DNA of 64,000 bases from a virus. The notes under the pieces were generated by a model. That model worked only from the letters and a program-made list of their open reading frames with translations, ran no database searches and was not told the DNA's origin. Location: positions 1-64,000 of IMG/VR virus record IMGVR_UViG_3300036851_000172. One strand, 5' to 3'. The translations under genes and the position numbers were made by a program. Positions 2,065 through 43,596 of the stretch are shown piece by piece; within the stretch, counting starts at the first letter, position 1; every line of letters starts with the position of its first letter.

Positions 2065-2241
2065 TCACTTCGGCCGCCGCTTGCGTGACACTTCGATCAT
2101 CCGCCACGGGATTTTGATTTGATCGGTGCGGAGGTGAGAGCCGTCATCGTTCTTCACTTCATGCACCAGCAGCAGATGACTCTTGTACTCGTAGTACCAG
2201 TCGGTCCTCGAAATATCCTGCGGCATGCGGCTCAGTGCCAT
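2065..2241 (-). CDS. hypothetical protein, 58 aa
   Basis: Reads MALSRMPQDISRTDWYYEYK and ends VSRKRRPK; preceded by a GGAGAGGAAG Shine-Dalgarno. Basic, possibly nucleic-acid binding. Lies in what otherwise looks like a 230-bp gap between the methyltransferase and the integrase module. Confidence 0.7.
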   Translation of the reverse strand: MALSRMPQDISRTDWYYEYKSHLLLVHEVKNDDGSHLRTDQIKIPWRMIEVSRKRRPK

Positions 2242-2296
2242 CTTCCTCTCCGTGCGTCCTTACACCAACTCGGTAGCGCCCCAACCACAAGTAAAA

Positions 2297-2605
2297 TCAA
2301 TGGCTTGAAGCCTTTGAACTATATGCGATAAGTGCGGCCTTGAGCAGCGCTACGTCGTCGCCGAGTTCAAGCTCGAACGTTCTGAACTCTGGGTTTCGAG
2401 CGCACGCATGCAAGCTCAACCGAACTCGGGTCGCTGCCCGCTCGACATGAGGCGGCCAACTTTCCAGATTTCGGATGCACCAAGTCGTGAACTCTTGGAG
2501 AGTCCTACTTACGTCCCATGACGGGAGTTCCGCGTCCGTTCGCGGGCCGCAAGGCGCTGAATTGTCGAGGGTGGACGTTCCGGATATATATGGCTGTTTC
2601 AGCAT
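2297..2605 (-). CDS. integrase-downstream protein, 102 aa
   Basis: Directly follows the integrase (11 bp gap). Start at MLKQPYISGTST has an AAGG 8 nt upstream. The C-terminal half (CARNPEFRTFELELGDDVALL) matches a homologue in phage 2 that is broken by a frameshift (48517-48806). Constant position next to int suggests a role in integration, excision or control of int, but nothing in the sequence proves this. Confidence 0.7.
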   Translation of the reverse strand: MLKQPYISGTSTLDNSAPCGPRTDAELPSWDVSRTLQEFTTWCIRNLESWPPHVERAATRVRLSLHACARNPEFRTFELELGDDVALLKAALIAYSSKASSH

Positions 2606-2675
2606 TTTCAAAGCCTTAGCTTTCCCTACGGAGGGGTATAATTTCCCCCGGTTCGCGGGGTGTTCTGTCGAGGTG
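2596..2675. repeat. 80-bp perfect direct repeat, copy 1 (candidate att region)
   Basis: Identical base for base to 48797-48876, whereas the flanking int and downstream gene differ at roughly one base in eight. It spans the last codons of int and the start of the next gene and contains short inverted arms (CCCT-N4-AGGG and CCCC/GGGG). Perfect conservation beside a tyrosine integrase is what an attachment region would show. Inference, not proven. Confidence 0.4.
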
Positions 2676-3587: not shown

Positions 3588-3828
3588 CTCGCACCCGATC
3601 GGTTGTTGAAGCGGGCGATAGTGTCACGATGGATTGGCGGCGGCTAGCCAGCGCTTCCCGAATGATGTGCAGAATCTGGCCATTGACGCTGCGGCACTCA
3701 TCCTTGGCCCAGTCCTCCAGTCCCGCCCGGTCCTCCGCGGCCATGTAGACGTGGGCCTCCACTGGACGCGAAAGTTTGCGTCGCTTCTCGCGTTCGCGCT
3801 CGATCGTGTCGGGGGCAGGAGCGGTCAT
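3550..3828 (-). CDS. Arc-like ribbon-helix-helix DNA-binding protein
   Basis: 92 aa; start MTAPAPDTIERERE chosen because the extra upstream residues overlap the neighbouring gene. The RHH core is VEAHVYMAAEDRAGLEDWAKDE followed by RSVNGQILHIIREAL, the Arc family pattern. Overlaps int by 38 nt in both phages, so it is a good candidate for a regulator of int or a recombination directionality factor (inference). Confidence 0.82.
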   Translation of the reverse strand: MTAPAPDTIEREREKRRKLSRPVEAHVYMAAEDRAGLEDWAKDECRSVNGQILHIIREALASRRQSIVTLSPASTTDRVRDATRRAVAETRK

Positions 3829-4007
3829 TCGGTCTTCGCCTTCGCGTTGAGTTTGTCGGCGTATTCCTGCGCCTCCCAGCGATAGCGCCATGGACCAAAA
3901 TCGTCCGGCACGGTCGTTCCCGGTGGTCCGACCACATATGACCAACCTTGTCGTTCGATGACGTGGAATTGTTCGCGCTCGGTCATGTCTGGGGCGGGCT
4001 GGGTCAT
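3825..4007 (-). CDS. hypothetical protein, 60 aa
   Basis: Starts MTQPAPDMTEREQ with GGGAG upstream, and its 3' end overlaps the RHH start by 4 nt. Central GWSYVVGPPGTTVPDDFGPW followed by a basic helix. Unknown function. Confidence 0.7.
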   Translation of the reverse strand: MTQPAPDMTEREQFHVIERQGWSYVVGPPGTTVPDDFGPWRYRWEAQEYADKLNAKAKTE

Positions 4008-4177
4008 GGCTCTCCCGTCGCGAGCTTCTCGATTCGCTCAGCCGTGGCTGAGCGCGGGAGGTTGTGGCATTGGCTGGCGATCTCGCGGAGAATGTCCTGC
4101 AGCCGCTCAGCTTCGGCCGCCCGTTCTTTCAGCTTCATCCATTCCGTTCTATGGAGCGTGACTGTTTTCACGGTCAT
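4004..4177 (-). CDS. hypothetical protein, 57 aa
   Basis: Start at MTVKTVTLHRTEW; mostly one long helix (MKLKERAAEAERLQDILREIA), likely coiled coil. ATGA overlap with the next gene. Unknown function. Confidence 0.65.
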   Translation of the reverse strand: MTVKTVTLHRTEWMKLKERAAEAERLQDILREIASQCHNLPRSATAERIEKLATGEP

Positions 4178-4359
4178 ACACTTTCGTCGTGAGCTATACG
4201 TTCGGTCGGCTTCCATCCAAGTGCCTTGGCAAGCTGTAGACACTCAGCGGCCTTGAGCGCGAAGAACAGCGCCTGCACATCGTCGCCCCGCTCGCGGGCA
4301 ACGAGTGCAGCATCTGCCAACTTCACGGACAGATTCCCGATCCTTTCGGCTCCGATCAT
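4174..4359 (-). CDS. hypothetical helical protein, 61 aa
   Basis: Start at MIGAERIGNLSVKLAD. Almost entirely alpha-helical by composition; overlaps both neighbours by 4 nt, so translation is coupled. Unknown function. Confidence 0.65.
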   Translation of the reverse strand: MIGAERIGNLSVKLADAALVARERGDDVQALFFALKAAECLQLAKALGWKPTERIAHDESV

Positions 4360-4652
4360 GATCCGTCCCGCAGTTGCGGAGTGGGCGATACTTTCAGCGC
4401 CGCCAGCCTTTTGCACTCGCTTTGGCAGCAGGCGTCGCACACATCGAGGCAACCATCCTCGCCCGTCTTGCCGGCGAGGTGATCGCCGCCATTGTTGTGG
4501 TCGCAGCCACCGTAAAATCGTTGTACGGCGACTTCCTTCACCTCGCCGTCAACAACCTGGAGACGCTTGCCATGAAGGCGCATCCATCTGGCGCAGCACG
4601 AGCATTGCAGTCGTGGGTTTGCGGCGTTGCGATCTTTGATGTGGACGGCCAT
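4356..4652 (-). CDS. Cys-rich zinc-binding-like protein, 98 aa
   Basis: Has CSCC near the N-terminus and CDVCDACCQSEC near the C-terminus with several His, so probably binds zinc. Part of the coupled leftward operon. Function unknown. Confidence 0.72.
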   Translation of the reverse strand: MAVHIKDRNAANPRLQCSCCARWMRLHGKRLQVVDGEVKEVAVQRFYGGCDHNNGGDHLAGKTGEDGCLDVCDACCQSECKRLAALKVSPTPQLRDGS

Positions 4653-6864: not shown

Positions 6865-7109
6865 TCGGCGGCCTCCAGTTCAAACGCACATTGGCGATCT
6901 TCGATTTCCTCCCTAATCCGCTTGATCTTGTCGGCAGCGTCGCGCAGGTTCTGTTCTGATGCCTGCAGGTCGATCATGTCGTAATTTTCCGGAAACTTCT
7001 GGCAGCGCATGAGCGTTCGTGTACGCGAGGCAAGCGACTCCGTGTCGTTGCGGATGCGCTGGAGTTCGAGATCGAACATGATGACGGTGCTGCGGATGTG
7101 AAGGCTCAT
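6861..7109 (-). CDS. helical (coiled-coil) protein, 82 aa
   Basis: Heptad-like pattern in DLELQRIRNDTESLASRTRT and ASEQNLRDAADKIKRIREEI. ATGA overlap downstream. Unknown function. Confidence 0.68.
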   Translation of the reverse strand: MSLHIRSTVIMFDLELQRIRNDTESLASRTRTLMRCQKFPENYDMIDLQASEQNLRDAADKIKRIREEIEDRQCAFELEAAE

Positions 7110-7110
7110 G

Positions 7111-7296
7111 TCAGTTGCCCCTCAAATATTGTGCTGTGGTGATGCCGTTCTGCTCGGCTTCATTATCAGCGTCGAACTGCACATCCGACTTGGCCGCCAG
7201 CTTCGCGCGTAGCTCCTCCATGGTGAGGTCCGGCCTGTTCCAGCAGTAGCGGCAGGCCTCCAGTATCCCTTCGTTCCAGTCGAGCGGCTTGTTCAT
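7111..7296 (-). CDS. hypothetical protein, 61 aa
   Basis: Start MNKPLDWNEGILEACRY; the short helix-rich body ends AEQNGITTAQYLRGN. Could be a small helix-turn-helix, but no clear motif. Confidence 0.62.
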   Translation of the reverse strand: MNKPLDWNEGILEACRYCWNRPDLTMEELRAKLAAKSDVQFDADNEAEQNGITTAQYLRGN

Positions 7297-7300
7297 GGCG

Positions 7301-7414
7301 TCACCATGCAACAATGGGGCTATGTGCGATGGCATCACCGATCAGCAGCACGGCAGCAACGAAAGCGCTGATCGCGAGCAGGGCGGCTAAATCTTCGGCT
7401 ATCCAGCGGATCAC
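7301..7414 (-). CDS. one-helix membrane protein, 37 aa
   Basis: GTG start with GGAGG upstream. Residues DLAALLAISAFVAAVLLIGD form one membrane helix. A homologue (48 aa) lies at the same operon position in phage 2 (52247-52393). Conserved position suggests a real role at the membrane, unknown which. Confidence 0.62.
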   Translation of the reverse strand: MIRWIAEDLAALLAISAFVAAVLLIGDAIAHSPIVAW

Positions 7415-7650
7415 GGTCGCCTCCGGACCGCGCCGGCCGAGGCGTAGGAGAGCCGCTCGAGCGTCGGCTTGTCCTGCGCGGCGAGCATCCGAAGGCAGAA
7501 GGAACAAGTGACTTCGGCGCGGTTGTCGGTGAGGTTCATCCCGTCCGCCAGCACGCGCATCCGATTGCAAAGCGTGCCATTGACGGTGCCACCGAACACG
7601 CCGGGCCGAACCCTTTGCATGTGCACCTTGGTTTCGGTCTGCTTGGTCAT
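7411..7650 (-). CDS. first gene of leftward early operon, Cys-containing, 79 aa
   Basis: Start at MTKQTETKVHMQRV. The body (RPGVFGGTVNGTLCNRMRVL, NLTDNRAEVTCSFCLRML) is about 85% identical to phage 2 52924-53154, also first in its operon. Cys residues (LCN, CSFC) may bind metal. First in the early operon in both, so likely made at once on induction. Function unknown. Confidence 0.78.
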   Translation of the reverse strand: MTKQTETKVHMQRVRPGVFGGTVNGTLCNRMRVLADGMNLTDNRAEVTCSFCLRMLAAQDKPTLERLSYASAGAVRRRP

Positions 7651-7672
7651 CGCTGGCTCCCGTGATCTGAGA

Positions 7673-7802
7673 GGGACAGAACGAAGGACCGGGGCAGTGG
7701 GGCGAGCTTGGCTCCCCGAACTTCGGCTTGAGCCCGGAGGCATCAGCGGCCGACCGGTGGGGTGCGATTGTCGCTGCAAGGCCCGGTCCTTCGTTCTGTC
7801 CC
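7673..7802. repeat. long inverted repeat in the leftward operon leader
   Basis: Arms GGGACAGAACGAAGGACCGG (7673 onward) and its complement ending at 7802 pair over 21-22 bp, separated by 86 bp. It lies between the leftward promoter and the first gene, so the transcript would start with a large hairpin. Phage 2 lacks it: there the flanks join directly. Could be an inserted miniature element or a cis-acting RNA. Confidence 0.75.
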
Positions 7803-7853
7803 GTTAACACCGTGTCTTCGGCGGGCTTCCCAGTTCCGTTATCTGATGATTGG

Positions 7854-7881
7854 AGATTACCATGACGGTAACAGATGTCAA
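7854..7881 (-). promoter_or_regulatory. leftward early promoter PL of phage 1
   Basis: Minus-strand TTGACA (7876-7881), 16-bp spacer, TAATCT (7854-7859). The perfect operator TTACC-N5-GGTAA occupies the spacer, so repressor binding would block it. Drives the genes from 7650 leftward. Confidence 0.65.
7857..7871. promoter_or_regulatory. operator OL1 (phage 1)
   Basis: TTACCATGACGGTAA, perfect 5-bp arms around a 5-bp centre, inside the PL spacer. Best match among five sites around the repressor gene. Confidence 0.72.
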
Positions 7882-7890
7882 GCGCAAAAG

Positions 7891-7905
7891 TTGCCGTCAC
7901 GGTAA
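7891..7905. promoter_or_regulatory. operator OL2 (phage 1)
   Basis: TTGCCGTCACGGTAA, one mismatch in the left arm; 34 bp from OL1 centre to centre, upstream of the PL -35. Confidence 0.65.
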
Positions 7906-7942
7906 TTATTTTTGTATGGGAATGCGACTCGGCCGGCGGGCC

Positions 7943-7959
7943 AAGCCAATCAATGGCTT
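7943..7959 (-). terminator. weak stem-loop after the phage 1 repressor gene
   Basis: AAGCCA-ATCAA-TGGCTT gives a 6-bp stem 40 bp past the repressor stop codon. There is no clear T tract, so a terminator role is only possible. Confidence 0.3.
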
Positions 7960-7998
7960 AGATTAGAAATCAGCTTTGGAGGAAATCGGCCTGAGGAT

Positions 7999-8331
7999 TT
8001 AGCTGCGGCGGACCCTGGCAGGACGCTCGGTAGGAAGCGCTTCTAATAGCGTTTGTGCAGCCCTGCGGGCCTCGGCCATCGCCGTGACGACCTCCGGGGG
8101 CCTGAGTAGATCACCCATATCGGACAGCTCAGGGGCGTGGCTCCTAAGGGCTAGGAACACCCCTGAGAGAACATTGAGGTCAACCCGCTGTGGTTCCCTG
8201 ATCCAGCGGGTCACGTTCTCCTTGTTGGTGTTCATGAGCCTGGCGAGTTCGGTTTGCGAAATGCGGGCGTGTTCTACCCACTCCTTGATGTAGTGGGGGC
8301 CCAATCTCGGGGCTTTGTACTTTGTTACCAT
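7999..8331 (-). CDS. XRE-family repressor of phage 1 (CI-like)
   Basis: 110 aa. Helix-turn-helix at about residues 22-45 (ISQTELARLMNTNKENVTRW). No C-terminal peptidase-like domain, so it is a short repressor and RecA-driven self-cleavage is not expected. Divergent from the Cro-like gene and flanked by five TTACC-N5-GGTAA operators, one of which (8325-8339) covers its own start codon, implying autoregulation. Maintains lysogeny by blocking PL and PR. Confidence 0.85.
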   Translation of the reverse strand: MVTKYKAPRLGPHYIKEWVEHARISQTELARLMNTNKENVTRWIREPQRVDLNVLSGVFLALRSHAPELSDMGDLLRPPEVVTAMAEARRAAQTLLEALPTERPARVRRS

Positions 8332-8339
8332 GACGGAAG
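8325..8339. promoter_or_regulatory. operator over the repressor start codon (phage 1)
   Basis: TTACCATGACGGAAG: left arm perfect, right arm imperfect. Overlaps the repressor ATG, so binding there would limit repressor synthesis. Confidence 0.5.
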
Positions 8340-8367
8340 CCTGCCACGCGGTCGGGGCCGCCGTCGT

Positions 8368-8382
8368 TGTCCGTCACGGTAA
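8368..8382. promoter_or_regulatory. operator OR2 (phage 1)
   Basis: TGTCCGTCACGGTAA, right arm perfect. Lies upstream of the cro promoter -35. Confidence 0.55.
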
Positions 8383-8390
8383 CTTTTCGC

Positions 8391-8419
8391 TTGCGCGATC
8401 GTTGCCGTCATGGTAACTG
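8391..8419 (+). promoter_or_regulatory. rightward promoter PR of phage 1
   Basis: TTGCGC (8391-8396), 17-bp spacer, TAACTG (8414-8419); weak -10. The spacer is filled by operator 8402-8416, the same geometry as PL. The predicted start point falls at or next to the cro ATG (8427), so the mRNA would be leaderless. Confidence 0.5.
8402..8416. promoter_or_regulatory. operator OR1 (phage 1)
   Basis: TTGCCGTCATGGTAA, one mismatch from a perfect palindrome, in the PR spacer. Confidence 0.65.
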
Positions 8420-8426
8420 TGGCGGC

Positions 8427-8657
8427 ATGGAAAGCATCCATCCGCTCAGAAATTTTCGGGAAACGCAGAATCCGCGGCTAACTCAGGATCAGTTAGCGAA
8501 CCTGCTGGGCGTGTCGAAGGCTTCTGTGTCCCGTTGGGAGACGGGCACACGAAAGCTGGATGAGGACTTGCTGTCGAGTGTGTCGGCGAAGACAGGAATT
8601 CCGAAAGCGAAGCTGCGGCCCGACTTGGCGGAACTCCTGTCGGAGACCGCTCAATGA
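8427..8657 (+). CDS. Cro-like XRE transcriptional regulator (phage 1)
   Basis: 76 aa. HTH at about residues 18-40 (LTQDQLANLLGVSKASVSRW) is a textbook XRE motif. Divergent from the repressor and first gene rightward, so it is the Cro-position protein that favours lytic growth. No Shine-Dalgarno is visible before the ATG, in line with a leaderless transcript. Confidence 0.87.
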   Translation: MESIHPLRNFRETQNPRLTQDQLANLLGVSKASVSRWETGTRKLDEDLLSSVSAKTGIPKAKLRPDLAELLSETAQ

Positions 8658-8923
8658 GCCTGCGCCGAGATGATGGATATTGGACGCGCGACAGGCGTGG
8701 TGCCGGCCAGAAGCCGCCATGCCTTCTCTTGGTCGGCTTGGAAATCGACCATCGAGCGACGGGTGATGATTCCCGTCACATGCCGGCGCCAGACGCCGCA
8801 GGTCTTGTACCAGTCGAAGAGCACGAAGCGCACCGATGGGCCGACGCGGTAGCAGTCCGCGAACGACGTAAAGTTTATTTCCGGGGCATTTCCAAGGTCG
8901 ATCAGGTCGTCGAGTTCCGTCAA
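8651..8923 (-). CDS. conserved protein convergent with cro, 90 aa
   Basis: Runs against the rightward operon and overlaps the 3' end of cro by 7 nt. Its core (ADCYRVGPSVRFVLFDWYKT) matches the gene at the same place in phage 2 (54387-54641: SECYVIGPLVRFLMWDWFRL). A conserved minus-strand gene beyond cro could be expressed in the lysogen or damp rightward transcription by collision. Function unknown. Confidence 0.7.
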   Translation of the reverse strand: MTELDDLIDLGNAPEINFTSFADCYRVGPSVRFVLFDWYKTCGVWRRHVTGIITRRSMVDFQADQEKAWRLLAGTTPVARPISIISAQAH

Positions 8924-8963
8924 TTTGGCCTCCCAACAGTGTCACCCACCGTTGGATACCATG

Positions 8964-8980
8964 ACGTGTGCTGCACACGT
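8964..8980. repeat. perfect palindromic stem ACGTGTG-CTG-CACACGT
   Basis: 7-bp arms with a 3-bp centre in the 170-bp gap 8924-9093 between the convergent gene and the first rightward gene. Could be an operator or a tight RNA hairpin. No other strong signal is seen in that gap. Confidence 0.5.
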
Positions 8981-9093
8981 GGGCAAGGAAAAACCACATT
9001 TGGTTACCGGAAAATATGCCGCGGCGGTCCCTTGGTACGGAGCCGGACAATTTACTTGACACGACAGCAGCCCTTACACGTCGGAACCTGCGC

Positions 9094-9276
9094 ATGACGG
9101 CCCCGATCTCGAACATCTATCGGTGCGGCTGTCACGGCGCGCTTGAGTGCCCGGACAGGAATCCTCCCGAGCCGTCGCTCAATGTCATCGGCGTTCTCGC
9201 CGGTGCTGTGTCAGGCGCGATCGGCGCCGGCGGCATCACGGCCTGGGCCATGTGGTGGCTGATGAGGTGCGGGTGA
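9094..9276 (+). CDS. small membrane protein with Cys motif, 60 aa
   Basis: MTAPISNIYRCGCHGALECP then a hydrophobic helix (VIGVLAGAVSGAIGAGGI). Start picked at the last ATG before the conserved-looking part. TGATG overlap with the next ORF. Confidence 0.62.
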   Translation: MTAPISNIYRCGCHGALECPDRNPPEPSLNVIGVLAGAVSGAIGAGGITAWAMWWLMRCG

Positions 9277-9365
9277 TGGACTGGTCCGCATTCTTCCTCT
9301 CGACCGGGCTGAGCTTCAGCCTTGGGTTCCTCATCGGGTACGTCGGCGAGAGGATGGATTCATGA
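9276..9365 (+). CDS. one-helix membrane peptide, 29 aa
   Basis: MDWSAFFLSTGLSFSLGFLI then GYVGERMDS. Coupled on both sides (TGATG before, ATGA after). Likely real because of the tight coupling; role unknown. Confidence 0.55.
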   Translation: MDWSAFFLSTGLSFSLGFLIGYVGERMDS

Positions 9366-9517
9366 TTTGTCGTTGCTGTCATGAGCGTCCTGTGCCGAAA
9401 GGCTTTCACTACTGCGAGTCATGCGGCGAGGCCTGCCACGCACTTATGCAGGCCGCCGCTCTTTGGTTTGTTTCACGTCTATGTCGTCAATCTGCCGCGC
9501 CAACGGCAGACAAGTAG
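9362..9517 (+). CDS. zinc-ribbon protein, 51 aa
   Basis: MICRCCHERPVPKGFHYCES then CGEAC: CxCC and CxxCxxxC groups. ATGA-coupled to the preceding peptide. Likely a small zinc protein of unknown target. Confidence 0.65.
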   Translation: MICRCCHERPVPKGFHYCESCGEACHALMQAAALWFVSRLCRQSAAPTADK

Positions 9518-9565
9518 CTACCGTGTCTCCGGTGCTGGGGAATAAGTAGCATCGGGAGTTTCCAA

Positions 9566-9946
9566 ATGGTGGAAGAGCGTTCCATGCGTGCGTTGATAGA
9601 AGCTGTGGCCGGTCCGCGCGAGTGGTCGGACACGCGAGGAAGCTGGCTCAACCGGGCGGCGAGACGCTCAGGGCTGAGCTTCAGAACAATCAAGAGCATC
9701 TGGTACGGCCAGATCAGAGATGAGAGCCACCATGCAGTCAGGCTCCTACGACACACTGCAGAGCAGCGGGCAGCGCAGCAATACGAAACCATCGCCCGCT
9801 CTCTCCAGGCTATCGACCCCGAGTTTCATAGTCCGCGCATCACTCAATATCTCGCTCTGGCTCGGGCGCTTCGCGATCTGGAAAGCTCGCAGGGAGCGCG
9901 AGAAGGCAATGCGGAAGGTTTTCCGGGGGAAGATTGGGAGGGATAG
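9566..9946 (+). CDS. helix-turn-helix phage protein, 126 aa
   Basis: Residues 26-50 (WLNRAARRSGLSFRTIKSIW) look like an HTH that reads bases; the rest is helical. Probably an early transcriptional regulator. Confidence 0.68.
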   Translation: MVEERSMRALIEAVAGPREWSDTRGSWLNRAARRSGLSFRTIKSIWYGQIRDESHHAVRLLRHTAEQRAAQQYETIARSLQAIDPEFHSPRITQYLALARALRDLESSQGAREGNAEGFPGEDWEG

Positions 9947-10240
9947 GTGACGGTTTGTTGTCCTACCTGTCATCAGCCTTACCGAGAAACGAGGCTCGGC
10001 ATTTCAATGCCGCGCCTGAAATCCGAGTTGTTCGATTCGATCAAGCTTGCGGGTGACATCGGCATCACCACAGAAGAACTGTGGGTTATGCATTACAGCA
10101 ACGCCAAGCGCTCGGCGGCTCCAACCACGATCAAGTCGCATGTCAACCAGATCAATGATCTGCTGGTCGAGACGGATTATGCCATCCGTCCGGATGGGCG
10201 CGGAAAGTCAGCACGATGGAAATTGGTAAGGGAGGGATAG
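9947..10240 (+). CDS. putative winged-helix protein with CxxC, 97 aa
   Basis: GTG start immediately after the previous stop. N-terminal CCPTCHQPY is a small metal site; residues 25-97 (SELFDSIKLAGDIGITTEEL ... STARWKLVREG-like end) look like a winged helix. Possible regulator or replication accessory. Confidence 0.62.
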   Translation: MTVCCPTCHQPYRETRLGISMPRLKSELFDSIKLAGDIGITTEELWVMHYSNAKRSAAPTTIKSHVNQINDLLVETDYAIRPDGRGKSARWKLVREG

Positions 10241-10243
10241 GTA

Positions 10244-10801
10244 GTGGAAGTCATCGAGCAGCCACGTCGGCTCAAGTACTACCTCCACTCTCCGTGGACA
10301 GAAACAACAGACAAGTACCTCATTTCTAATTGGGGGAAGAAGGGCGTTCGTGACATTGCCAATTTCATTGGTGTGACAAAAAGTAGCGCAGCGGGTCGCG
10401 CCATGCGACTTGGGCTCAAGCGCCTGCAAGCGCCGCGGTTCAAGGGGCTTACCAATGGACCCCGGAAGCGACCAGCCCCCAAGCTGGTTCGTGACAAGCC
10501 ACCCAGGTTGCCGACAAAGGCTGCAACCGATCTCGCTCCGGACCAATCCAATTGCGCAATCAGCCTGATCGAGGCGAAGCCTCATCAATGCCGGTGGCCG
10601 CTGGATGAGCCGACCGCGGCAATGATGGTCTGTGGCGAAACCAAGTGCGAAGGCTCGTCCTACTGCATCCGGCATCACAACATCGCGTATCGCAAAAACT
10701 ATGTCGTTGACGAGCAAGACAAAATACGCCGGCACCATCACTGGAAGAAGGTTTGCGTTGCAAAGGTAACTCAATTCCTCTCCGAAGAGGCAAATACATG
10801 A
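10244..10801 (+). CDS. GcrA-like transcriptional regulator (phage 1)
   Basis: 185 aa, GTG start. N-terminal HTH-like segment (YLISNWGKKGVRDIANFIGV) followed by a linker and the GcrA C-terminal signature QCRWPLDEP...VCGETKCEGSSYCIRHH. GcrA is a sigma70 co-activator that reads CcrM-methylated GANTC in alphaproteobacteria. A phage copy could redirect host polymerase to phage promoters (inference). A second GcrA is at 61289 in phage 2. Confidence 0.75.
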   Translation: MEVIEQPRRLKYYLHSPWTETTDKYLISNWGKKGVRDIANFIGVTKSSAAGRAMRLGLKRLQAPRFKGLTNGPRKRPAPKLVRDKPPRLPTKAATDLAPDQSNCAISLIEAKPHQCRWPLDEPTAAMMVCGETKCEGSSYCIRHHNIAYRKNYVVDEQDKIRRHHHWKKVCVAKVTQFLSEEANT

Positions 10802-11139
10802 TCACGCTCAATCTTCCGACGCCTCCGAGTACGAACAACTTGTATTTCAACAGGGGCAAGAGGCGTGCTCCGACCACTGAGCACAAGAACTGGATGGATG
10901 AGGCGGCACTCCAAATCATCGCCCAGCGGGTCGGCCACGTCAAAGGTCCGGTGACACTTGAGTTCGCGGTTGAGGAGAACAAGCGCCGCGACTTGGGGAA
11001 CTACGAGAAGATCGTGACCGACGCACTGGTGAGATACGGCGTGATCGAGGGCGATCGCTGCAAGACCGTGCGCGGGATACTGCTGCGCTGGTCGAGCAAT
11101 GTGAAAGGAATTCAGGTCTTCATCGAGCAAGCAGTGTAG
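10798..11139 (+). CDS. rusA: RusA-type Holliday junction resolvase
   Basis: 113 aa, ATGA-coupled to the GcrA-like gene. RusA family pattern: LPTPPSTNNLYFNRGKRRAP at the start, the acidic catalytic segment RRDLGNYEKIVTDALV and GVIEGDR. Resolves four-way junctions during phage recombination and replication before packaging. Confidence 0.85.
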   Translation: MITLNLPTPPSTNNLYFNRGKRRAPTTEHKNWMDEAALQIIAQRVGHVKGPVTLEFAVEENKRRDLGNYEKIVTDALVRYGVIEGDRCKTVRGILLRWSSNVKGIQVFIEQAV

Positions 11140-11144
11140 TGGTC

Positions 11145-11615
11145 ATGAGCAAGGCATGGATGCCGCTCTATATCGGTGATTACAAACGGGACACCGGGCA
11201 TCTGACCACGCTTGAGCACGGCGCCTACTTCCTCCTGATCATGCACTACTGGGAGAAAGGGCCATTGCCGAATGATGATGTGCGACTGGCTAGGATTGCC
11301 GGGGTTTCGCTGAAGCAATGGTCTTCCCTGCGGGAAGTAGTCATTTCATTCTTCAGTGAAGCAAATGCTAAGCAATTGCTTCGCCACAAACGCATTGATG
11401 AGGAGCTTACCAAAGCCGAAATAATCTCGGCAAAACGGGCACTTGCGGGTGCCAAGGGCGGCTTCTCCAATCGTGGCAAGACCAACCAAGAACGAAATTA
11501 CGGGAAAGCATTTGCTAAGCAAAGGGACGACCAATCACAATCACATAGTAATCTTTCTTCTATTGCCGAGGCCATGCGCTCGAGAGCGAGAAGGACTTTC
11601 GAGGAAGAAAGGTAA
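11145..11615 (+). CDS. DUF1376 (YdaU-like) replication-associated protein
   Basis: 156 aa. Hallmark start WMPLYIGDYKRDTGHLTTLE HGAYFLLIMHYW, the DUF1376 signature, often found in the replication-initiation slot of phages. The C-terminal basic tail is low complexity. ATG 11145 preferred to the GTG at 11139. Confidence 0.82.
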   Translation: MSKAWMPLYIGDYKRDTGHLTTLEHGAYFLLIMHYWEKGPLPNDDVRLARIAGVSLKQWSSLREVVISFFSEANAKQLLRHKRIDEELTKAEIISAKRALAGAKGGFSNRGKTNQERNYGKAFAKQRDDQSQSHSNLSSIAEAMRSRARRTFEEER

Positions 11616-14758: not shown

Positions 14759-17155
14759 TGGCCAAGATGTCCAATGGTGACCTGAAAGCACTGTTGGCGA
14801 ACGAGAAGGCCTCGGCCCTGTCCGGCATGGCCTCGTCCAAGCTCAGCGAGGATCGCTCCAAGGCGATGGATTATTACCTCGGCGACATGTCGCGCGATCT
14901 GCCGGCGCAGGACGGCCGCTCCAGCGCTGTTTCCACCGATGTCAGCGATACGGTCGAGGGCCTGATGCCGACGCTGATGGACATCTTCACCTCGGGGGAT
15001 GAGGTGGTAAAGTTCGACCCGGTCGGGCCGGAGGATGTCGAGGCGGCCGAACAAGAAACTGACTACATTAACCACGTTTTCATGGAGAAAAACCCCGGCT
15101 TCCTCACGCTGTACTCGTTCATCAAGGATGCGCTGCTGTCCAAGGTTGGCGTGGTCAAGGTGTGGTGGGAATGCGAGGAGCGCGAGGAGCGCCAGACGTT
15201 TTACGACCTTGATGATCAGCAGTTTGCGATGATTGCGGCCGAGGTTGGGGACGAATACGAGATCGTCGAGCACACGATCAAAGACAGGCCTGGTGAAGAT
15301 GCTGGCACCAAATCCGCAAGCTCTTACTGAGGCCGCCCCGAAGTGGCATGATGTCACCGTTGTATGCAAGACCAAGTACGAGTGCGCGCACGTCTGCGGG
15401 GTGCCGCCCGAGGAGTTCGGCATCAGCTCGTCGGCGCGCAACATCAAGGATGCCGGCTACGCCTACCACGAGATGGTGGACAAGTCCGAGTCCGACCTGA
15501 TCGAGCAGGGCTATGACGAGGACTGTATCAAGGCATTGCCCAGCTACAGCGGGGATAGCACCGGCGTCGAGCAGCAGTCGCGCGATACGGTGGACGAACG
15601 CCAAAGTAGCTTGGGGGATGACGGCTTCAATCCGGCCAATCGCAAAATAAAGATCACCGAGCACTATGTGAAGATGGACTATGAGGGGGACGGAAAGGCC
15701 CGCCTCTACCGGGTGACGACGGGCGGCGATGACGGGGTGATCCTGACCCGCAGCGGCGAGGATGATGTTGTAGAGGTCGATCACATCTGCTTTGCAGCGA
15801 TGACGCCGGTGATTGTGACGCACCGGTTCTTCGGCCGGTCTATTGCGGACCTAGTCATGGATATCCAGCGCATCAAGACGGCTGTGGTTAGGGGGCTGCT
15901 CGACAATCTGTACATGCACAACATGCCGCGTCCGGTGGTGTCGGAGCAGGGTGCCGGCGACAGCACGCTTGATGATCTCTTGGTGGCCCGCCACGGGGCG
16001 GTCATTCGTGTCAAGGGCGATGCGCAAGCGGCCATACAGTGGCAGCAGGTGCCTGACATTACCGGAGCGTGCTATCCCGCCCTGCAGTATTTCGATGCAA
16101 CGCGTGAGTGGCGCACTGGTGTATCAAGACAGGGCCAAGGCGTAGACCCGGAGGCATTGCAAAATCAGGTCGCGACCATCGCGAACCAGATGTACAACGC
16201 CTCGCAGGCCAAGGTGAAGCTGATCGCCCGCATCTTTGCGGAGACCGGCATTCGGGATTTGTTCAGCCTGCTGCATGCGACGATCCGGAGACACGGCAGC
16301 CAGCCACAGACCGTCCGGCTGCGGAACAAATGGGTTGAGGTTGACCCGCGGGAGTGGAAATCCCGCGACGACATGACGGTGAAGGTCGGGCTGGGGGACG
16401 GGAGCAAACAGGAACAGCTTGCCGGCCTGCAATTGCTCATCGGTGCGCAGGAGAAGGCTATCTCGGCCGGTCTGGTGAGCCCAAAGAACCTGTTCAACTC
16501 TGGCAAGCAGTTGTGCAAGCTGTTGGGGCACAAGGATCCGGAGGAGTATTTCACGGCGCCAGGCAAGCCGGCTGATCCGCAGGACCCCGCTTCCGCGCCG
16601 ATCCCGCCGCCAAAGGACCCGAAGCTTATTGAGCTCCAAGCCAAGAACGAGATCGAGAAGACCCAGGCGCAGGCCGACATTGCCACCAACCGCGACAAGA
16701 TGAATCAAGAAGCGCAGATGGCGCAGATGAAGTTCCAGTTCGAGGCTGGACTGGAGGAGCGCCGGTTCGAGCTCGAGAAGGAACTGAAGCTTCTGGATGC
16801 GCAGATCAAGATGCAGCAGCATTCGGAGGAGATGAACTTCAAGCGCGAGGCGCACTCGCAGACCATGCAGCAGAAGACCACCGACCACGCCATGAAGACC
16901 GAACAGGCCAAGCAGAAGGCAGAAGAGGGGCCGAAAGCCGCCATCCAGGTCAAGCACAGCGCGGATGAATTGACCGGCCCATTGGGCGAGATGCTGTCGC
17001 AATTCAGCAAGGCCCTTGCGGAGCAGTCAGACCGGCAGTCCGAGAGCATGAAGCAGCAAAGCGAGGCGATGGCGGCGGCGCTGAAGCAGATGAGCGCGCC
17101 GCGTCGGGCACGGAAGAACAAAGACGGCAGCTGGCAGACGGAGATGATGCAGTGA
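14758..17155 (+). pseudogene. portal protein, P22-like, split by a +1 frameshift
   Basis: The two halves together encode a portal of about 800 aa. 14758-15330 codes the N-terminus (SKAMDYYLGDM, STDVSDTVEGLMPTLMDIFT, VWWECEEREER). The portal sequence continues one frame over to 17155 (ECAHVCGVPPEEFGISSSAR, FFGRSIADLVMDIQRIKTAV), ending in a 150-residue Gln/Glu/Lys-rich coiled coil. The shift lies between about 15283 and 15335, in a linker that is variable in this family. An internal ATG at 15299 has a weak GGTGAAG upstream, so two-piece synthesis is possible. A real mutation, an assembly error or programmed +1 shift cannot be told apart here. Confidence 0.85.
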
Positions 17156-37199: not shown

Positions 37200-38072
37200 T
37201 TGACCTGGTATAAGTGGAGTGTAACCGCGGCATCCAACGCCACGGCGGACAGCACTATCAATTGGGCAGAAGGCCAGGCCCCGTCATCGGTGAACGATTC
37301 CGCACGCGGCATGATGGCCGCTGCTGCGAAGTATCGCAAAGACTTGGGCGGCGTCACGACTGGCGGTTCCTCGACCGCCTACACCATCACGTCGAATCAA
37401 GTCTTCGACTTGCTCGCCAACATGAGCGGGAACATCGTCACTATCATTCCTCACACGACCTCAGGGGCCTCGCCTACGCTCAATGTGGATGGCCTTGGCG
37501 CCAAGGCTCTTAACGTCTCGACTACTGTAGCCATCCCCACGGGGGCGCTCGTCACTGGCTCGCCTTACAGCTTTGTGTACGTCAACGCCTCGAACGAGTT
37601 CATCCTCATCAATTCCACTGCGGTGCTGCAAACCATCAGCGCCACTACAGCGTCCGGAGACATGGTTGCCTCGCAGGCGGTCATGGAGACCGGCACCTCG
37701 ACAAGCACGCTGACCTCGCCGGGTCGGCAGCACTTCAATCCGAGGCATCCGAAGGCGTGGGCCAATTTCAGCGGCGAGGGAACGCCGGCAGTCACGGTAG
37801 GAACTGGCGTTTCGTCGATCACAGATAACGGCGCGGGTGACTATGCCGTGAACTGGACAACGTCATTTTCGACGGCGAACTATTGCACGGTGGGCAACGG
37901 GGGAACGCCAGCCAGCGGCGCATCAATGATTCTTGCTTTTGACAGGTCAACTGCGGCAGCACAGGTGGCACCCACGGCATCATCGGTACGTCTCAATATC
38001 GCCAACTTTGGCACCGGCGTCCTGACGGACACCAATCGCGTCTATATTGCGGCATTCGGAGACTTTGCGTGA
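37200..38072 (+). CDS. tail fibre protein, 290 aa
   Basis: TTG start with GGAGG upstream. WSVTAASNATADSTINWAEG QAPSSVNDSARGMMAAAAKY is the standard opening of phage tail fibres; the middle is a beta-domain and the C-terminus (GSIGD-like VYIAAFGDFA) a fibre tip. Likely receptor-binding appendage. Confidence 0.75.
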   Translation: MTWYKWSVTAASNATADSTINWAEGQAPSSVNDSARGMMAAAAKYRKDLGGVTTGGSSTAYTITSNQVFDLLANMSGNIVTIIPHTTSGASPTLNVDGLGAKALNVSTTVAIPTGALVTGSPYSFVYVNASNEFILINSTAVLQTISATTASGDMVASQAVMETGTSTSTLTSPGRQHFNPRHPKAWANFSGEGTPAVTVGTGVSSITDNGAGDYAVNWTTSFSTANYCTVGNGGTPASGASMILAFDRSTAAAQVAPTASSVRLNIANFGTGVLTDTNRVYIAAFGDFA

Positions 38073-38805: not shown

Positions 38806-38913
38806 ATGGAAACCCTGTTCGCCGGCCTTGCCATCACAGCGGGGCTCGCCGCCCTGTTTGTTGTCTTCCCCTGGCTGTTGATGTTTTGGCCGGGGTTTGA
38901 TGCATTCAAATGA
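38806..38913 (+). CDS. one-helix membrane peptide, 35 aa
   Basis: METLFAGLAITAGLAALFVV FPWLLMF then WPGFDAFK. ATGA-coupled to the lysin gene, which suggests it belongs to the lysis cassette, perhaps as a pinholin-like or regulator peptide (inference). Confidence 0.6.
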   Translation: METLFAGLAITAGLAALFVVFPWLLMFWPGFDAFK

Positions 38914-41045
38914 ACGAGTTAGTCGGGCTCGGACTGCTCTACCTCATAGGGGCATCCGGGCCGGTCGAAGGCAAGGACGGCGCTGCCGTCGAGGTCCCAT
39001 ATGACCAAGGACTACCGAGGCGCGGCGTTGGAATTGCATATGGCAACTTGCTTGTTGAGCCGGGTTCTGGGGAGTTTCCGCCGTACCGAAAGCCAACTGA
39101 CACGGCAGCGCAATACGGCGAGAAAGTCCCCGATGAAACTGGGCCAGGCTTCGAACAAAATCTTAGAGCGCAATTCTATCGCCGCAAAGAACAAGGCTTC
39201 AAGTACATCGAGCTAGATAATCCGGATGCCTATCCCCTTGAAGCCGTCATGCGGGCGACGGCTCTGGCGGAATCTTATGGCCTCGGTGTCATTGCCAAGA
39301 ACGCCAAGCTTGTTGACGGCGGGGCACAATGGCTTCGTCATCCAAATGTTGTAGGCGTCATCGTCGAGAAGGGCGCGGGCTCGCCGGCTGACTATGCGGC
39401 GCTGCGGCCTTCTGCCGACTTTCCGGTGTGGTTTGTGTCGTTCGGCTCCGGGCGGGCGTGGGCGAGCATCACCGCCGCCGACATCACGGCGCGCGGCTAC
39501 ACCAATATGAGTGTCACTTGGTCGCCGGGCGGCGAGTACACGCGCTCGGTAGACGTTCTGCTTCCGCTGAAGAAATCCTCTCAAACCCAGAGTCCCGATA
39601 TGGCGGAACCCGCCCATCTTGCGCTCGCACGATCGCTGATCGGTAAATACACGGACGGCCCAGACGTTCCCAAATTGGCGATGGAGATTGCCGCCGCCTT
39701 CCCGGAGATGACGAGCTATTGTCGCCTGGCGAATGTCGCTACTTCGTGGTGCGGCATTCTCATCGGCGTGCTTCTGCTGAGGTCCTATGGAATTCGCCCG
39801 CCGTTTGGTGACGGTGATCTGCTCCGCTTTATGTGGGTCGATGCATGGGAGGACGAGGACTGGGGTGGCCAGTCCATCCCTATCAGCCAAGCCCGGCCGG
39901 GTGACATCATCATCATGCGGTCGCCGCATCATATTTCAGTGCTGGACGAGGTCGATGGCGACACGTTTTGGTGCATCGGCGGCAACCAGTCGAATGGCTT
40001 GACGCGCGCGCCGTTTCAACGCAGCGGCGTGCGCTCGGTGCGCCGTTCGCCGACAGTCATCGCACGGCCGATGCGGCCCGCTGTCTCGAACTTCGACAAG
40101 TGCCTTCCGCTGCTGCTCGAGCATGAGGGGGGCTACTCCAACCATCCGTCCGACCCAGGCGGTCCCACCAACTTCGGCATCACGATCATCGACTACCGGC
40201 TCTACATCGACCCTAATGGGACGGCGGCCGATGTCCGTGGGATGACGGTCGATCAGGCCAAAACGATCTATCGGTCGAAATACTGGGATGCAATGCGCTG
40301 CGACGATCTGCCGTCCGGGGTTGATTATGCCGTGTTCGACTACGGAGTGAACTCCGGCATCAGCCGTTCGGCGAAGGTGCTGCAGCGTCTCGTCATTCCG
40401 CATGAGGTCGATGGCGAGATCGGTCCAAACACGATCGCAGCGACGTCCGGCGTGAGCGATCCTCGGACGCTGATCAATCAGATCTGTGACGAGCGGCTGG
40501 CCTTCCTCCAGGGACTCAGCACCTGGCCAACCTTCGGCAATGGCTGGGGGCGCCGTGTGCGCGAGGTCCGGGCCGCCGCACTGGAAATGGCTGCAACCCC
40601 AAAGGAACCCACGATGCCGAAAGCGCCAGAGATATTCCCGCCTGGAACGCCGCTACCTGGACAGCAGGTCGATTGGGCGCTGCTCATTCAGCAGCTCTTG
40701 CCGCCGCTGATAGCCGCTATCCAGCAGGCACGCGGGGGTCAGCCGCTTCTGCCGCCTCCCGTCGTCGAGCCGCCGCCTCCAGCGCCCGCACCACCCCCGC
40801 CGGCCTCTCAGCGCCCCAGCGTCCAACTCGGCGTGCTCGGACTTGTGGCTTCCGCAGTGCTGCAGGCGTTCGGTTTCATCGGCACCCCGTTGGGAATGGG
40901 AGTGGAGCCGACCACGTTAGGTACGGCCGCGACAGTCATTCCTGCCGCCATTGCCGCTACCGGCCTGACGGGGGTCTGGGGCATCGTCGCCAATGTCGGC
41001 CTCTCACTTCTCGGCACCCTGCTTAAGAACCGTATCCCGAAATGA
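38910..41045 (+). CDS. multidomain endolysin fused to holin-like helices
   Basis: 711 aa. Residues 30-220: TIM-barrel-like glycosidase region (FKYIELDNPDAYPL, GVIAKNAKLV), resembling GH114-type enzymes. 235-385: CHAP/NlpC-like amidase with Cys281 (ATSWCG), ARPGDIIIM and SPHHISV. 395-560: GH108 muramidase with catalytic Glu405 (LLEHEGGYS) and DPGGPTNFGIT. 612-635 Pro linker; 638-705 hydrophobic helices ending in KNRIPK, like a small holin or anchor. Length is several times a normal GH108 lysin (about 170-200 aa). Confidence 0.85.
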   Translation: MNELVGLGLLYLIGASGPVEGKDGAAVEVPYDQGLPRRGVGIAYGNLLVEPGSGEFPPYRKPTDTAAQYGEKVPDETGPGFEQNLRAQFYRRKEQGFKYIELDNPDAYPLEAVMRATALAESYGLGVIAKNAKLVDGGAQWLRHPNVVGVIVEKGAGSPADYAALRPSADFPVWFVSFGSGRAWASITAADITARGYTNMSVTWSPGGEYTRSVDVLLPLKKSSQTQSPDMAEPAHLALARSLIGKYTDGPDVPKLAMEIAAAFPEMTSYCRLANVATSWCGILIGVLLLRSYGIRPPFGDGDLLRFMWVDAWEDEDWGGQSIPISQARPGDIIIMRSPHHISVLDEVDGDTFWCIGGNQSNGLTRAPFQRSGVRSVRRSPTVIARPMRPAVSNFDKCLPLLLEHEGGYSNHPSDPGGPTNFGITIIDYRLYIDPNGTAADVRGMTVDQAKTIYRSKYWDAMRCDDLPSGVDYAVFDYGVNSGISRSAKVLQRLVIPHEVDGEIGPNTIAATSGVSDPRTLINQICDERLAFLQGLSTWPTFGNGWGRRVREVRAAALEMAATPKEPTMPKAPEIFPPGTPLPGQQVDWALLIQQLLPPLIAAIQQARGGQPLLPPPVVEPPPPAPAPPPPASQRPSVQLGVLGLVASAVLQAFGFIGTPLGMGVEPTTLGTAATVIPAAIAATGLTGVWGIVANVGLSLLGTLLKNRIPK

Positions 41046-41512
41046 AGTCCGCCCCGCTCGTCCTTGCCGGCATCCTGCTGGCTACCCATGCCATGGCGGC
41101 GCCGGCCGACCCATTGAGCGCGATTTACCAATGGCTGTACCCGCCCAAGTCTTCGACAAGTGCTCAGATTCAGAAAAGCCCGCCGGTGGCTCCTAAGCCG
41201 CTTCCGGCGCCTGAGAGACGGGCCAAGCCGGAAACCCAGCCAGCGCCCGCCCCTGAGTCACGGCCAGCCCCTCCGAAAGTACAGTCTCGCTCGATCGAGC
41301 GGCCCAAGCCCAAGCCGAAACAGGTGCAGGAGGCGCCCAAACCGGAACCCCTGTCCTGTGCCGATGTTCGGCGTGGGGTTGGCATGCCGTGCTTTCTCAT
41401 CCGAGCCAACTCGCACCACTACGAACGACTGTCACCGGCACAAAAGCGGCAGGCCGATAGCTGCCTGTCAGCCTCAGAACGCGCTGCCATCAAAGCTTGT
41501 TTTACCCCCTAA
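41042..41512 (+). CDS. secreted Pro-rich protein of the lysis cassette (spanin-like candidate)
   Basis: 156 aa. Signal peptide (SAPLVLAGILLATHAMAA), a 70-residue Pro/Lys/Glu linker able to cross the periplasm, and a compact C-terminus with three Cys (LSCADVRRGVGMPCFLIR ... KACFTP). ATGA-coupled to the lysin. A unimolecular spanin role is possible, but no outer-membrane lipobox is seen. Confidence 0.6.
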   Translation: MKSAPLVLAGILLATHAMAAPADPLSAIYQWLYPPKSSTSAQIQKSPPVAPKPLPAPERRAKPETQPAPAPESRPAPPKVQSRSIERPKPKPKQVQEAPKPEPLSCADVRRGVGMPCFLIRANSHHYERLSPAQKRQADSCLSASERAAIKACFTP

Positions 41513-41527: not shown

Positions 41528-41869
41528 ATGCCCTTCCTCGGTATCGCCGTGATCATCGGCGTCATCACTGCCCTAGTCGCGTTGCGCCGTAAGCATCAGC
41601 CCAGCCCGCCCGTAGGCCCGATGACCGATGAGGAGGTGCGGGCCATGCTCGCTGAATTGGCCCCGGACGTCCCGGACGCGACCGACTACGGCAACTCAAT
41701 TGTTGATCTTCTGAAGGTGCTCCGGTTGCCGTCCGACAAAAGCAGCCGGCGCGTGCTTTGGGAGGAGATGAAGCATGAGGGCGCCTACGTCGGCAGCGCT
41801 GAGCAGAACGTGCAGCTTCATGCCGACGTGATGAAAAAGCTCGCCGACCGTGAAATCGGTGCGAAATGA
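41528..41869 (+). CDS. DUF3597-domain protein
   Basis: 113 aa. N-terminal membrane helix (FLGIAVIIGVITALVALRR) then the DUF3597 helical motif NSIVDLLKVLRLPSDKSSRR, YVGSAEQNVQLHADVMKKLA. Family of unknown function, often beside lysis genes in rhizobial phages. Confidence 0.75.
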   Translation: MPFLGIAVIIGVITALVALRRKHQPSPPVGPMTDEEVRAMLAELAPDVPDATDYGNSIVDLLKVLRLPSDKSSRRVLWEEMKHEGAYVGSAEQNVQLHADVMKKLADREIGAK

Positions 41870-41879
41870 GGAAATGAAG

Positions 41880-42314
41880 ATGAATTCCGAGCAAGTGAAG
41901 TCCGCGCTGCGTACCCTCGTTGCTACCTTCGGGGGCTCGATCGCGGGTTTTTTCGTGGCCAAGGGCTGGTTCACAACTGATCAGGTCATGTCGATCCTGA
42001 CCAGCGAGGCTTTTCTCGGCGTCGCAACGTCGGCTGTCGTCGGCGCCTGGGGTATCTGGGCCAAGACTCGCAATAACCTGCTGGTCACGGCAGCCACCGT
42101 CACGGACGACAAGGGCGACAAGATCGTCAAGGAAATGAAGCTGTCCGATCCCCAAGTGGCGGCCGAGGTGAATCCGCAGGTCTCGGCACGGGTCGTGGCG
42201 GTGAAAGAGTCGCGGGAAAAGTCGGGTGCAAAGCCTACCTTGCCCCCCGAAATGCTGCCTCCCATCACGCCATCTGAGCCGCCCATCGGCAGCCCGCCGA
42301 TCAAGGACTTCTAA
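41880..42314 (+). CDS. Pam3-gp28-type holin
   Basis: 144 aa. MNSEQVKSALRTLVATFGGS IAGFFVAKGW and FLGVATSAVVGAWGIWAKT match this holin family: two membrane segments then a long Pro-rich cytoplasmic tail. Start chosen at 41880 because GAGGA lies 8 nt upstream. Would permeabilise the inner membrane to release the lysin. Confidence 0.82.
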   Translation: MNSEQVKSALRTLVATFGGSIAGFFVAKGWFTTDQVMSILTSEAFLGVATSAVVGAWGIWAKTRNNLLVTAATVTDDKGDKIVKEMKLSDPQVAAEVNPQVSARVVAVKESREKSGAKPTLPPEMLPPITPSEPPIGSPPIKDF

Positions 42315-42532
42315 TGCCGACCTACGGCGAGATTGCCCAGATCCTCACGGCGGTAGCGGCTATCGGCGCGCTTCTCAATTCGCTTCGCAATGGCCGCAAG
42401 CTTTCTGCTGTTGTCGAGAAGGTTGATGAGGTGCACTTGGCCACGAACTCGATCACAGATCGTCTTGTTGAGACGACAAAGACAGAGGCCCATGCCGCTG
42501 GCCTGAAGGAAGGCCGCGGCGAGCAGCGCTAG
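42314..42532 (+). CDS. membrane-anchored coiled coil, 72 aa
   Basis: MPTYGEIAQILTAVAAIGAL LNSLRNGRKLSAVVEKVDEV: one helix in the membrane and a charged helix outside, as in Rz-like or phage hemolysin-XhlA-like proteins. TAATG overlap with the holin. Confidence 0.65.
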   Translation: MPTYGEIAQILTAVAAIGALLNSLRNGRKLSAVVEKVDEVHLATNSITDRLVETTKTEAHAAGLKEGRGEQR

Positions 42533-42541
42533 GAGGCCGTC

Positions 42542-42754
42542 ATGGTCGAAAACATCATCTACTTGCTGATCTACATAGCCTTGGTCGTCGGGCTGATATA
42601 CCTTGTGATTTGGGTACTGGAACAACTCGGCATTGCGCTGCCGCCGATGGTGGTGAAGGTCATGTGGGTCATTGTCGTGTTGATTGTCCTCCTGCTTTGC
42701 TGGAGGGCCCTGTCCCCCTTCATTGGCGGCGGTGGAAAAATGTTTCCCAGATAA
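42542..42754 (+). CDS. small membrane protein, two helices, 70 aa
   Basis: IIYLLIYIALVVGLIYLVIW VLEQLG and VKVMWVIVVLIVLLLCW give two membrane spans; ends GGGGKMFPR. AGGAGG Shine-Dalgarno. Possible second holin or antiholin. Confidence 0.68.
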   Translation: MVENIIYLLIYIALVVGLIYLVIWVLEQLGIALPPMVVKVMWVIVVLIVLLLCWRALSPFIGGGGKMFPR

Positions 42755-42885
42755 CACAGCGGGACGCACGTTCGCTAGCGACGATCGTGCGCCCCTACCA
42801 CCACAAGACAGGGGTACTGTCCTATGTTGGCTACAAACAATACCGCAACTTTTGGTCTCATTCATCCCGCCTTCGGCTACCGCCG

Positions 42886-43104
42886 ATGACGCCCCTCACC
42901 AACAACGAACGGATCGTCGTGCTTGAGCACAAGATCAAGCACATGGGTGAAGAGCTCGACCGGATGGTGAGGAAGGTCGATGAGATGCATGCAGTCCTGA
43001 TGCAGGCCAAGGGCGTGAAATGGGCCGTGATCACGTTCTCGGGTCTGGTCGGTTTCCTGATCGGCGTCGGCGCCTTCCTGATTAACCTGAAGGGCCTGCG
43101 ATGA
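42886..43104 (+). CDS. XhlA-like coiled-coil membrane protein, 72 aa
   Basis: Start MTPLTNNERIVVLEHKIKHM. A cytoplasmic coiled coil (GEELDRMVRKVDEMHAVL) then one membrane helix at the end (VITFSGLVGFLIGVGAFL). This is the XhlA layout, which in PBSX-like phages works with a holin. The 130 bp before it show no gene. Confidence 0.66.
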   Translation: MTPLTNNERIVVLEHKIKHMGEELDRMVRKVDEMHAVLMQAKGVKWAVITFSGLVGFLIGVGAFLINLKGLR

Positions 43105-43113
43105 GGAAACAGA

Positions 43114-43596
43114 ATGGCGAAGCTTCGCGAGCTCCTGGGGCAATATGCGGTTGCGGCCCTGTGGACGGCAGGCCTGACAGTCCTGGGGATCATTGGCTCC
43201 CTCCTGCTCAACTACGACCGCCGGGAGCCGTTCCTGTATGCCAAAGTGACGCTGTCCCCCATCCCGGCGAAAGCGGGTCAGGCTATCCTCGTCCGGCGCG
43301 AGATCGTGTGGCTGCGGCATTGCGAGAGGGAGGGGGAGGTCTGGCGGGAGATCGTCCGGCCCAACGGGACGATCAGCCAATACGACCGCCGGTACACTCG
43401 GGTGCCGTCCGATCTTGGCTTGCAGATCGTGGAAAACCCCTTCTGGCTCGATGCTGCGGTTCTCGACAATGCGGAGAACGAGGGCACCGCGTTGTTTCGC
43501 TTGTCGGTCATCTTTCATCACTGTGGGATCACATCCGGCTTTCGCCCTATCCATGGGCCAAGGTTGGAAATCCCCTTTCGGGTTGTGCGGCCGTGA
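43114..43596 (+). CDS. membrane-anchored hypothetical protein, 160 aa
   Basis: One N-terminal helix (YAVAALWTAGLTVLGIIGSL) then a beta-rich outside domain (FLYAKVTLSPIPAKAGQAIL). Unknown; part of the lysis/membrane gene run. Confidence 0.66.
   Translation: MAKLRELLGQYAVAALWTAGLTVLGIIGSLLLNYDRREPFLYAKVTLSPIPAKAGQAILVRREIVWLRHCEREGEVWREIVRPNGTISQYDRRYTRVPSDLGLQIVENPFWLDAAVLDNAENEGTALFRLSVIFHHCGITSGFRPIHGPRLEIPFRVVRP

Follow-up and report, generated by a model that had tools for sequence, protein, structure and literature searches.

The window, a stretch of 64,000 nucleotides from a soil-type phage whose virus record is 73,333 bases long, contains an open reading frame (38910–41045, plus strand) that encodes a modular lysin. 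The frame starts with ATG, runs without an internal stop and specifies 711 amino acids; its domains and the genes listed below up to 43104 lie on the same strand. The full-length protein matches PHROG 315, a lysis/endolysin family, with an E-value of 1.8e-53. Tail-fibre-type genes (37200–38072) precede the lysin gene, which overlaps the next gene in an ATGA sequence at 41042. Judged by its putative portal protein (15233–17155), the closest named phage is Bradyrhizobium phage ppBeUSDA76-2 (47.6% identity), and the host is therefore probably, though not certainly, an alphaproteobacterium. The two annotated lysozymes of ppBeUSDA76-2 itself are 197–230 amino acids long. An earlier note on this DNA had described the frame as a one-protein lysis machine, with three wall-active domains and a holin-like tail. 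The presence of several wall-active domains in a single frame is borne out, and their features are described below.

Residues 393–560 (40086–40590) form an ordinary and intact GH108 muramidase with its PG_binding_3 domain, as identified by Pfam, by PDB relatives and by alignment. The GH108 match (PF05838) covers residues 401–483 (E = 5.7e-27; 94.5 bits against a cut-off of 21.2) and the PG_binding_3 match (PF09374) covers residues 489–549 (E = 2.5e-5; 24.8 bits against a cut-off of 24.6). The best PDB relatives of the GH108 region are 7dnp, 2is5 and 2ikb. The motif EHEGGY, which had been noted earlier as intact, is found at residues 404–409, and the GH108 glutamate within it, E406 (40125–40127), is invariant in our alignment of this module (A4). 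Both Pfam domains and the EGGY glutamate that define GH108 endolysins are thus present. Where the protein differs from the sampled GH108 lysins is in its approximately 390 N-terminal amino acids, which hold two further domains. In a sample of 80 viral GH108 lysins, none has an N-terminal extension of more than 100 amino acids, which rules out that such fusions are common among them. In contrast, a hydrophobic C-terminal segment (mean hydropathy of at least 1.6) is present in about a quarter of related viral GH108 lysins (20 of the 79 whose 3' ends were complete). The N-terminus, rather than the tail, is therefore the unusual part of the protein, and the rarity previously ascribed to the tail does not hold.

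The middle domain (residues 230–390; 39597–40079) was recognized by a profile match and by alignment as an NlpC/P60-like peptidase/amidase-type domain. Residues 273–378 match TIGR02594 with an E-value of 2.2e-6, and although the 28 bits of this match fall under the curated cut-off of 70.55, the domain is, on this comparison, homologous to TIGR02594. C281 (39750–39752), H341 (39930–39932) and N359 (39984–39986) are invariant in an alignment (A5) with three relatives, namely a Roseobacter phage protein, a TIGR02594 protein from Sinorhizobium and the tail lysozyme of Klebsiella phage Magnus, and together they provide the expected Cys-His-polar motif. Domains of this type occur in phage lysins and in tail lysozymes of Ackermannviridae, and their WC, H and GGNQ motifs are kept here. 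However, the window domain is divergent and is sandwiched between two glycosidases. What had been called a CHAP/NlpC-like domain can thus be assigned to the TIGR02594 type. A TIGR02594 domain with a hydrophobic C-terminal tail is also found in gp39 of Roseobacter phage CRP-403 (L166, 472–1104), which is annotated as hypothetical and is a candidate membrane-tailed lysin.

The muramidase is followed by a Pro-rich linker (about residues 570–636; 40617–40817), similar to a linker in one of the relatives described below (L052), and by a C-terminal pair of hydrophobic stretches (40827–40991) as proposed in the earlier note. Their mean Kyte-Doolittle values are 1.97 (residues 640–658) and 1.78 (residues 676–694), and the pair is a probable membrane anchor or hairpin. 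The last 81 residues match no Pfam or PHROG family and no holin family.

The gene that overlaps the end of the lysin (41042–41512) encodes a secreted protein that is rich in Pro and has a TonB-like linker and, at its C-terminus, a conserved end containing Cys. In L052, where the lysin is a different one of the same type, a homologue (10709–11239) comes immediately after it, with an overlap of the same sort. No lipobox was seen by eye in the protein of the window, so it is not a typical outer spanin. Next come a DUF3597 protein with an N-terminal membrane anchor (41528–41869; Pfam and hydropathy) and, 0.8 kb downstream of the lysin, a candidate holin of the Pam3 gp28 family (Phage_holin_10; 41850–42314) with two hydrophobic segments, whose match (E = 5.9e-5; 23.5 bits) lies just below the cut-off of 27. 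Hydropathy points to a second holin candidate in a strongly hydrophobic membrane protein of 70 amino acids (42542–42754). A protein of 72 amino acids with a C-terminal membrane helix (42886–43104) is weakly similar to the hemolysin/XhlA-type PHROG 1193 and is conserved in another carrier of the N-terminal domain (L051). The run of small membrane proteins, which includes an N-anchored protein of 160 amino acids, extends from 41528 to 43596 and makes this an unusually membrane-rich lysis region.

The N-terminal domain (residues 1–222; 38910–39575) is predicted from profile comparison, an AlphaFold2 (AF2) model and Foldseek to be a GH114-like (beta/alpha) barrel. As a single sequence it has no match in Pfam, in PHROGs or, by sequence, in the PDB; tblastn against 50,697 named phage records found no copy, and scans of viral contigs and of genome contigs with it were also without matches. 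The family was opened with a hand-made degenerate DNA pattern for E-x-DNPDAY, which was run on viral contigs and led to 15 true relatives by tblastn, with E-values down to 6e-62. Two more viral-contig members, L056 and L067, came from a profile scan, as did L068, a single locus in a Xanthobacteraceae MAG. The resulting alignment (A2) consists of 17 relatives and the window protein (18 rows); L067 is a fragment that ends before D103 and is among the few exceptions to the conserved columns. Two further members of the family likewise have no match in the named phages and, beyond the source MAG (G001), no barrel match was found among 399 genomes of its family or among 399 of its phylum.

Twelve of the 15 relatives match GH114 (Pfam PF03537) weakly (best E = 6.5e-6), and the full-length L053 and L068 proteins score 12.8 bits against a cut-off of 27. 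The window protein does not match this model or reach the family cut-off, so that "GH114-like", the term used in the earlier note, is correct and "GH114" is not. The stretch GLGLLYLIG near the N-terminus was considered as a signal peptide or SAR segment and rejected, as it forms the first barrel strand and is conserved inside longer proteins. From these comparisons the barrel is a phage family and a candidate new glycosidase family that appears to be undescribed in the literature searched.

The AF2 model of residues 1–222, made with alignment A2, has a pLDDT of 89.9 and a pTM of 0.88, and its strands and helices alternate, as expected for the endo-galactosaminidase fold. A single-sequence model of the whole protein (pLDDT 38.7) was discarded. 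The TIM barrel on which the earlier description depended is therefore predicted. In a Foldseek search of the PDB, ranks 1 to 6 are taken by endo-galactosaminidases only (E from 5e-8 to 1.2e-4): PelA (hydrolase domain, 5tsy and 5tcb; GH166), Ega3 (6oj1) and FsGH114 (9ep6; both GH114), and Env-GH191 (9ep5) and TM1410 (2aam; both GH191). A gap follows, with the next TIM barrel at E = 1.8e-3. Identity to these fold neighbours is 12–15%, below family cut-offs, with TM-scores of 0.49–0.63, and at about 222 residues the barrel falls short of the 251–287 residues of the solved enzymes. At the profile level there is similarity to GH114: the barrel family matches a set of 15 alphaproteobacterial GH114 proteins in hhalign (E = 2e-6, probability 89.5), whereas five column-shuffled control alignments gave an E-value of about 0.7, and this set in turn matches all of the listed PDB enzymes. 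Profile match and predicted fold together support a GH114-like glycosidase. No viral structure in BFVD matches the barrel below E = 0.001. A weak fold neighbour there (A0A2H4J827; 6.3e-3) is a protein of an uncultured Caudovirales phage named "Spherulation-specific family 4" (Sph3/GH135 type), and other phages may thus carry GH135-like enzymes.

Invariant or nearly invariant positions in the family are E71, D75, G78, N84, Q88, E101, D103, N104, D106, A107, Y108, K130, N131 and E153. D103 and E153 are kept in every relative that covers both positions, and in the profile alignment they correspond to the invariant D165 and E225 of the GH114 set. D103 (39216–39218) lies in the motif ELDNPDAY at the end of strand 99–103, and E153 (39366–39368) lies at the end of strand 147–153. 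In published work, the catalytic pair of Ega3 is D189/E247 and the putative active-site residues of TM1410 are D156/E225 (PMC12054363). Alignment and model point to D103 as the counterpart of the catalytic nucleophile Asp and to E153 as that of the acid/base Glu. The barrel thus shares with GH114, GH135 (Sph3), GH166 and GH191 both the modified (beta/alpha)8 barrel and, for the candidate residues, the arrangement of the catalytic Asp and Glu, in which the Asp ends a central strand and the Glu lies two strands further along.

Some members of the family stand alone, some carry a membrane anchor and others are fused to one or another wall enzyme. In L053 and L054 the barrel is joined to GH108 and an uncharacterised C-terminus, and in L052 to PG_binding_1, other sequence, a Pro-rich linker and a hydrophobic tail of weak similarity. 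The L053 C-terminus (9300–9881; approximately 160 amino acids) has no Pfam match and carries a conserved-looking SAGC motif, possibly as part of a transpeptidase-like domain. The fused relatives in these independent phages combine the same N-terminal module with other wall-lysis modules, which contradicts a frameshift or fusion artefact in the window, a doubt raised in the earlier note. N-terminal membrane helices are present in L051, where an endolysin-like gene lies about 2.2 kb downstream, and in L068. Among the free-standing copies, L058 is flanked by a GH25 lysozyme and a 2-TM protein. L057 has an Rv2525c-type glycosidase on one side and, on the other, a 2-TM protein with a papain-like protease, and L062 and L063 lie upstream of an Amidase_3/endolysin-type protein. 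The complete L057 cassette (6961–10177) consists, in order, of the Rv2525c-type glycosidase-like protein, the GH114-like protein, an unclassified protein of 184 amino acids, the 2-TM protein and the papain-family protease. At least five non-fused copies are found beside endolysin or holin-like genes; no recognisable lysis genes adjoin the free-standing L056 and L064, and L068, in its bacterial MAG contig, has no clear phage context. Near the anchored GH114-like protein of L068 (locus 779–4366), the opposite strand encodes a second protein whose membrane anchor is similar, and the same MAG has three ordinary GH114 proteins. Several carriers of the family are apparently phages of Alphaproteobacteria. 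Because it occurs free, anchored and variously fused, with non-fused copies beside lysis genes, the barrel is, by gene context, a mix-and-match, lysis-associated glycosidase.

We consider it probable that the protein is a holin-dependent endolysin with three enzymes, the barrel of which cuts an amino-sugar polymer of the host surface and so aids the dispersal of progeny. This proposal builds on domain homology, the predicted fold, the conserved candidate catalytic residues and the repeated lysis-cassette context, from which we infer that the individual modules are active, what the substrate is, when the protein acts and that it associates with the membrane. The lysin would be made in the cytoplasm. 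Its three consecutive enzymes, a GH114-like endo-glycosidase, an NlpC/P60-like hydrolase of peptide or amide bonds and a GH108 muramidase, would be followed by the Pro-rich linker and by a hydrophobic tail that seeks the membrane. The protein would wait in the cytoplasm until the separate holin opens the inner membrane, upon which the GH108 and NlpC-like modules would cut peptidoglycan while the barrel would hydrolyse a second host-surface polymer, of the alpha-1,4-galactosamine type or a similar amino-sugar exopolysaccharide. The lysing cell and its matrix would then come apart and progeny would disperse. A galactosamine-containing exopolysaccharide is the most likely substrate of the modelled barrel, as all six nearest structures come from families that cut such polymers; the exact sugar may differ, given the low TM-scores and identities. 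The earlier suggestion that the barrel may cut an exopolysaccharide thus gains support from its nearest solved folds, which are Pel- and GAG-cutting enzymes.

The barrel might instead attack an envelope glycan within the cell boundary (a periplasmic glycan, a lipopolysaccharide sugar or peptidoglycan) and help to break down the wall, with no exopolysaccharide involved. The wall hydrolases to which it is fused or adjacent come from several families that are unrelated to one another, which would suit envelope opening. However, the six best structural neighbours all belong to families acting on galactosamine-rich extracellular polymers, and GH114-type enzymes are not known to cut peptidoglycan, so we regard this reading as unlikely. 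A periplasmic target is kept as a rival because a PelA-type hydrolase can act there, as PelA itself does (PMC9894940). It is also conceivable, though distinctly unlikely, that the barrel is catalytically dead and serves in carbohydrate binding or cell-wall targeting. It sits at the N-terminus as an accessory to two wall enzymes of the same lysin, and many accessory domains of lysins are binding or targeting modules; its shortness relative to the solved enzymes would fit as well. Yet D103, E153 and the motifs ELDNPDAY, AKN and IVE are among the most conserved parts of the family, as expected of an active site, and free-standing copies would have nothing to target.

Two further readings concern the whole protein. 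That it is a virion-associated hydrolase, a tail-tip or ejection protein that drills through capsule and wall on entry, strikes us as very unlikely. The gene does come after tail-fibre-type genes and TIGR02594 is shared with tail lysozymes, but the lysin is directly followed by the secreted protein, the DUF3597 membrane protein and the candidate holin, its non-fused relatives adjoin endolysin and holin-like genes, and it matches PHROG 315. Highly improbable, finally, is a built-in holin, by which one protein would both make the hole and cut the wall, as in the endolysin-holin fusion of the earlier note. The two hydrophobic stretches invite this reading, but searches with the tail returned no holin family, the downstream region encodes a holin candidate of its own as well as a further small membrane protein, and an anchor fits a feature common among related lysins better than an exceptional fusion does. 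"One-protein lysis machine" was therefore an overstatement.

Returning to the holin-dependent, three-enzyme endolysin, each of its modules is of a known kind. The combination, and the presence of a Pel/GAG-type barrel in lysis cassettes, appear to be undescribed in the literature searched, and a search for endolysins together with GH114 returned no report of such a lysin. The known endo-alpha-1,4-galactosaminidases are secreted fungal and bacterial biofilm enzymes, whereas this barrel is phage-encoded, lies in lysis cassettes and is fused to peptidoglycan hydrolases. Phage enzymes that cut polysaccharides are thought of as tail-borne tools of entry. The proposed role resembles that of phage exopolysaccharide and capsule depolymerases, in that host surface polysaccharide would be removed; however, those are usually virion tail spikes used for entry, whereas the barrel is part of a lysin and would act on exit. 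Chemistry of the same kind thus appears to form part of the machinery for exit. The family was not found in the 50,697 named phage genomes, nor in 398 further genomes from the bacterial family to which its one bacterial carrier belongs, nor in 398 from that carrier's phylum. More tentatively, it is possible that the barrel represents an undescribed glycoside-hydrolase family, a standard though optional part of the lysis cassettes of mainly uncultured phages, that dissolves the amino-sugar matrix of the host at lysis and frees virions from biofilm. The findings suggest that some phages remove sticky polysaccharide as they lyse their host. If active, the protein would be a natural combination of enzymes against biofilm matrix and cell wall, and matrix clearing at phage lysis would become a directly testable question.
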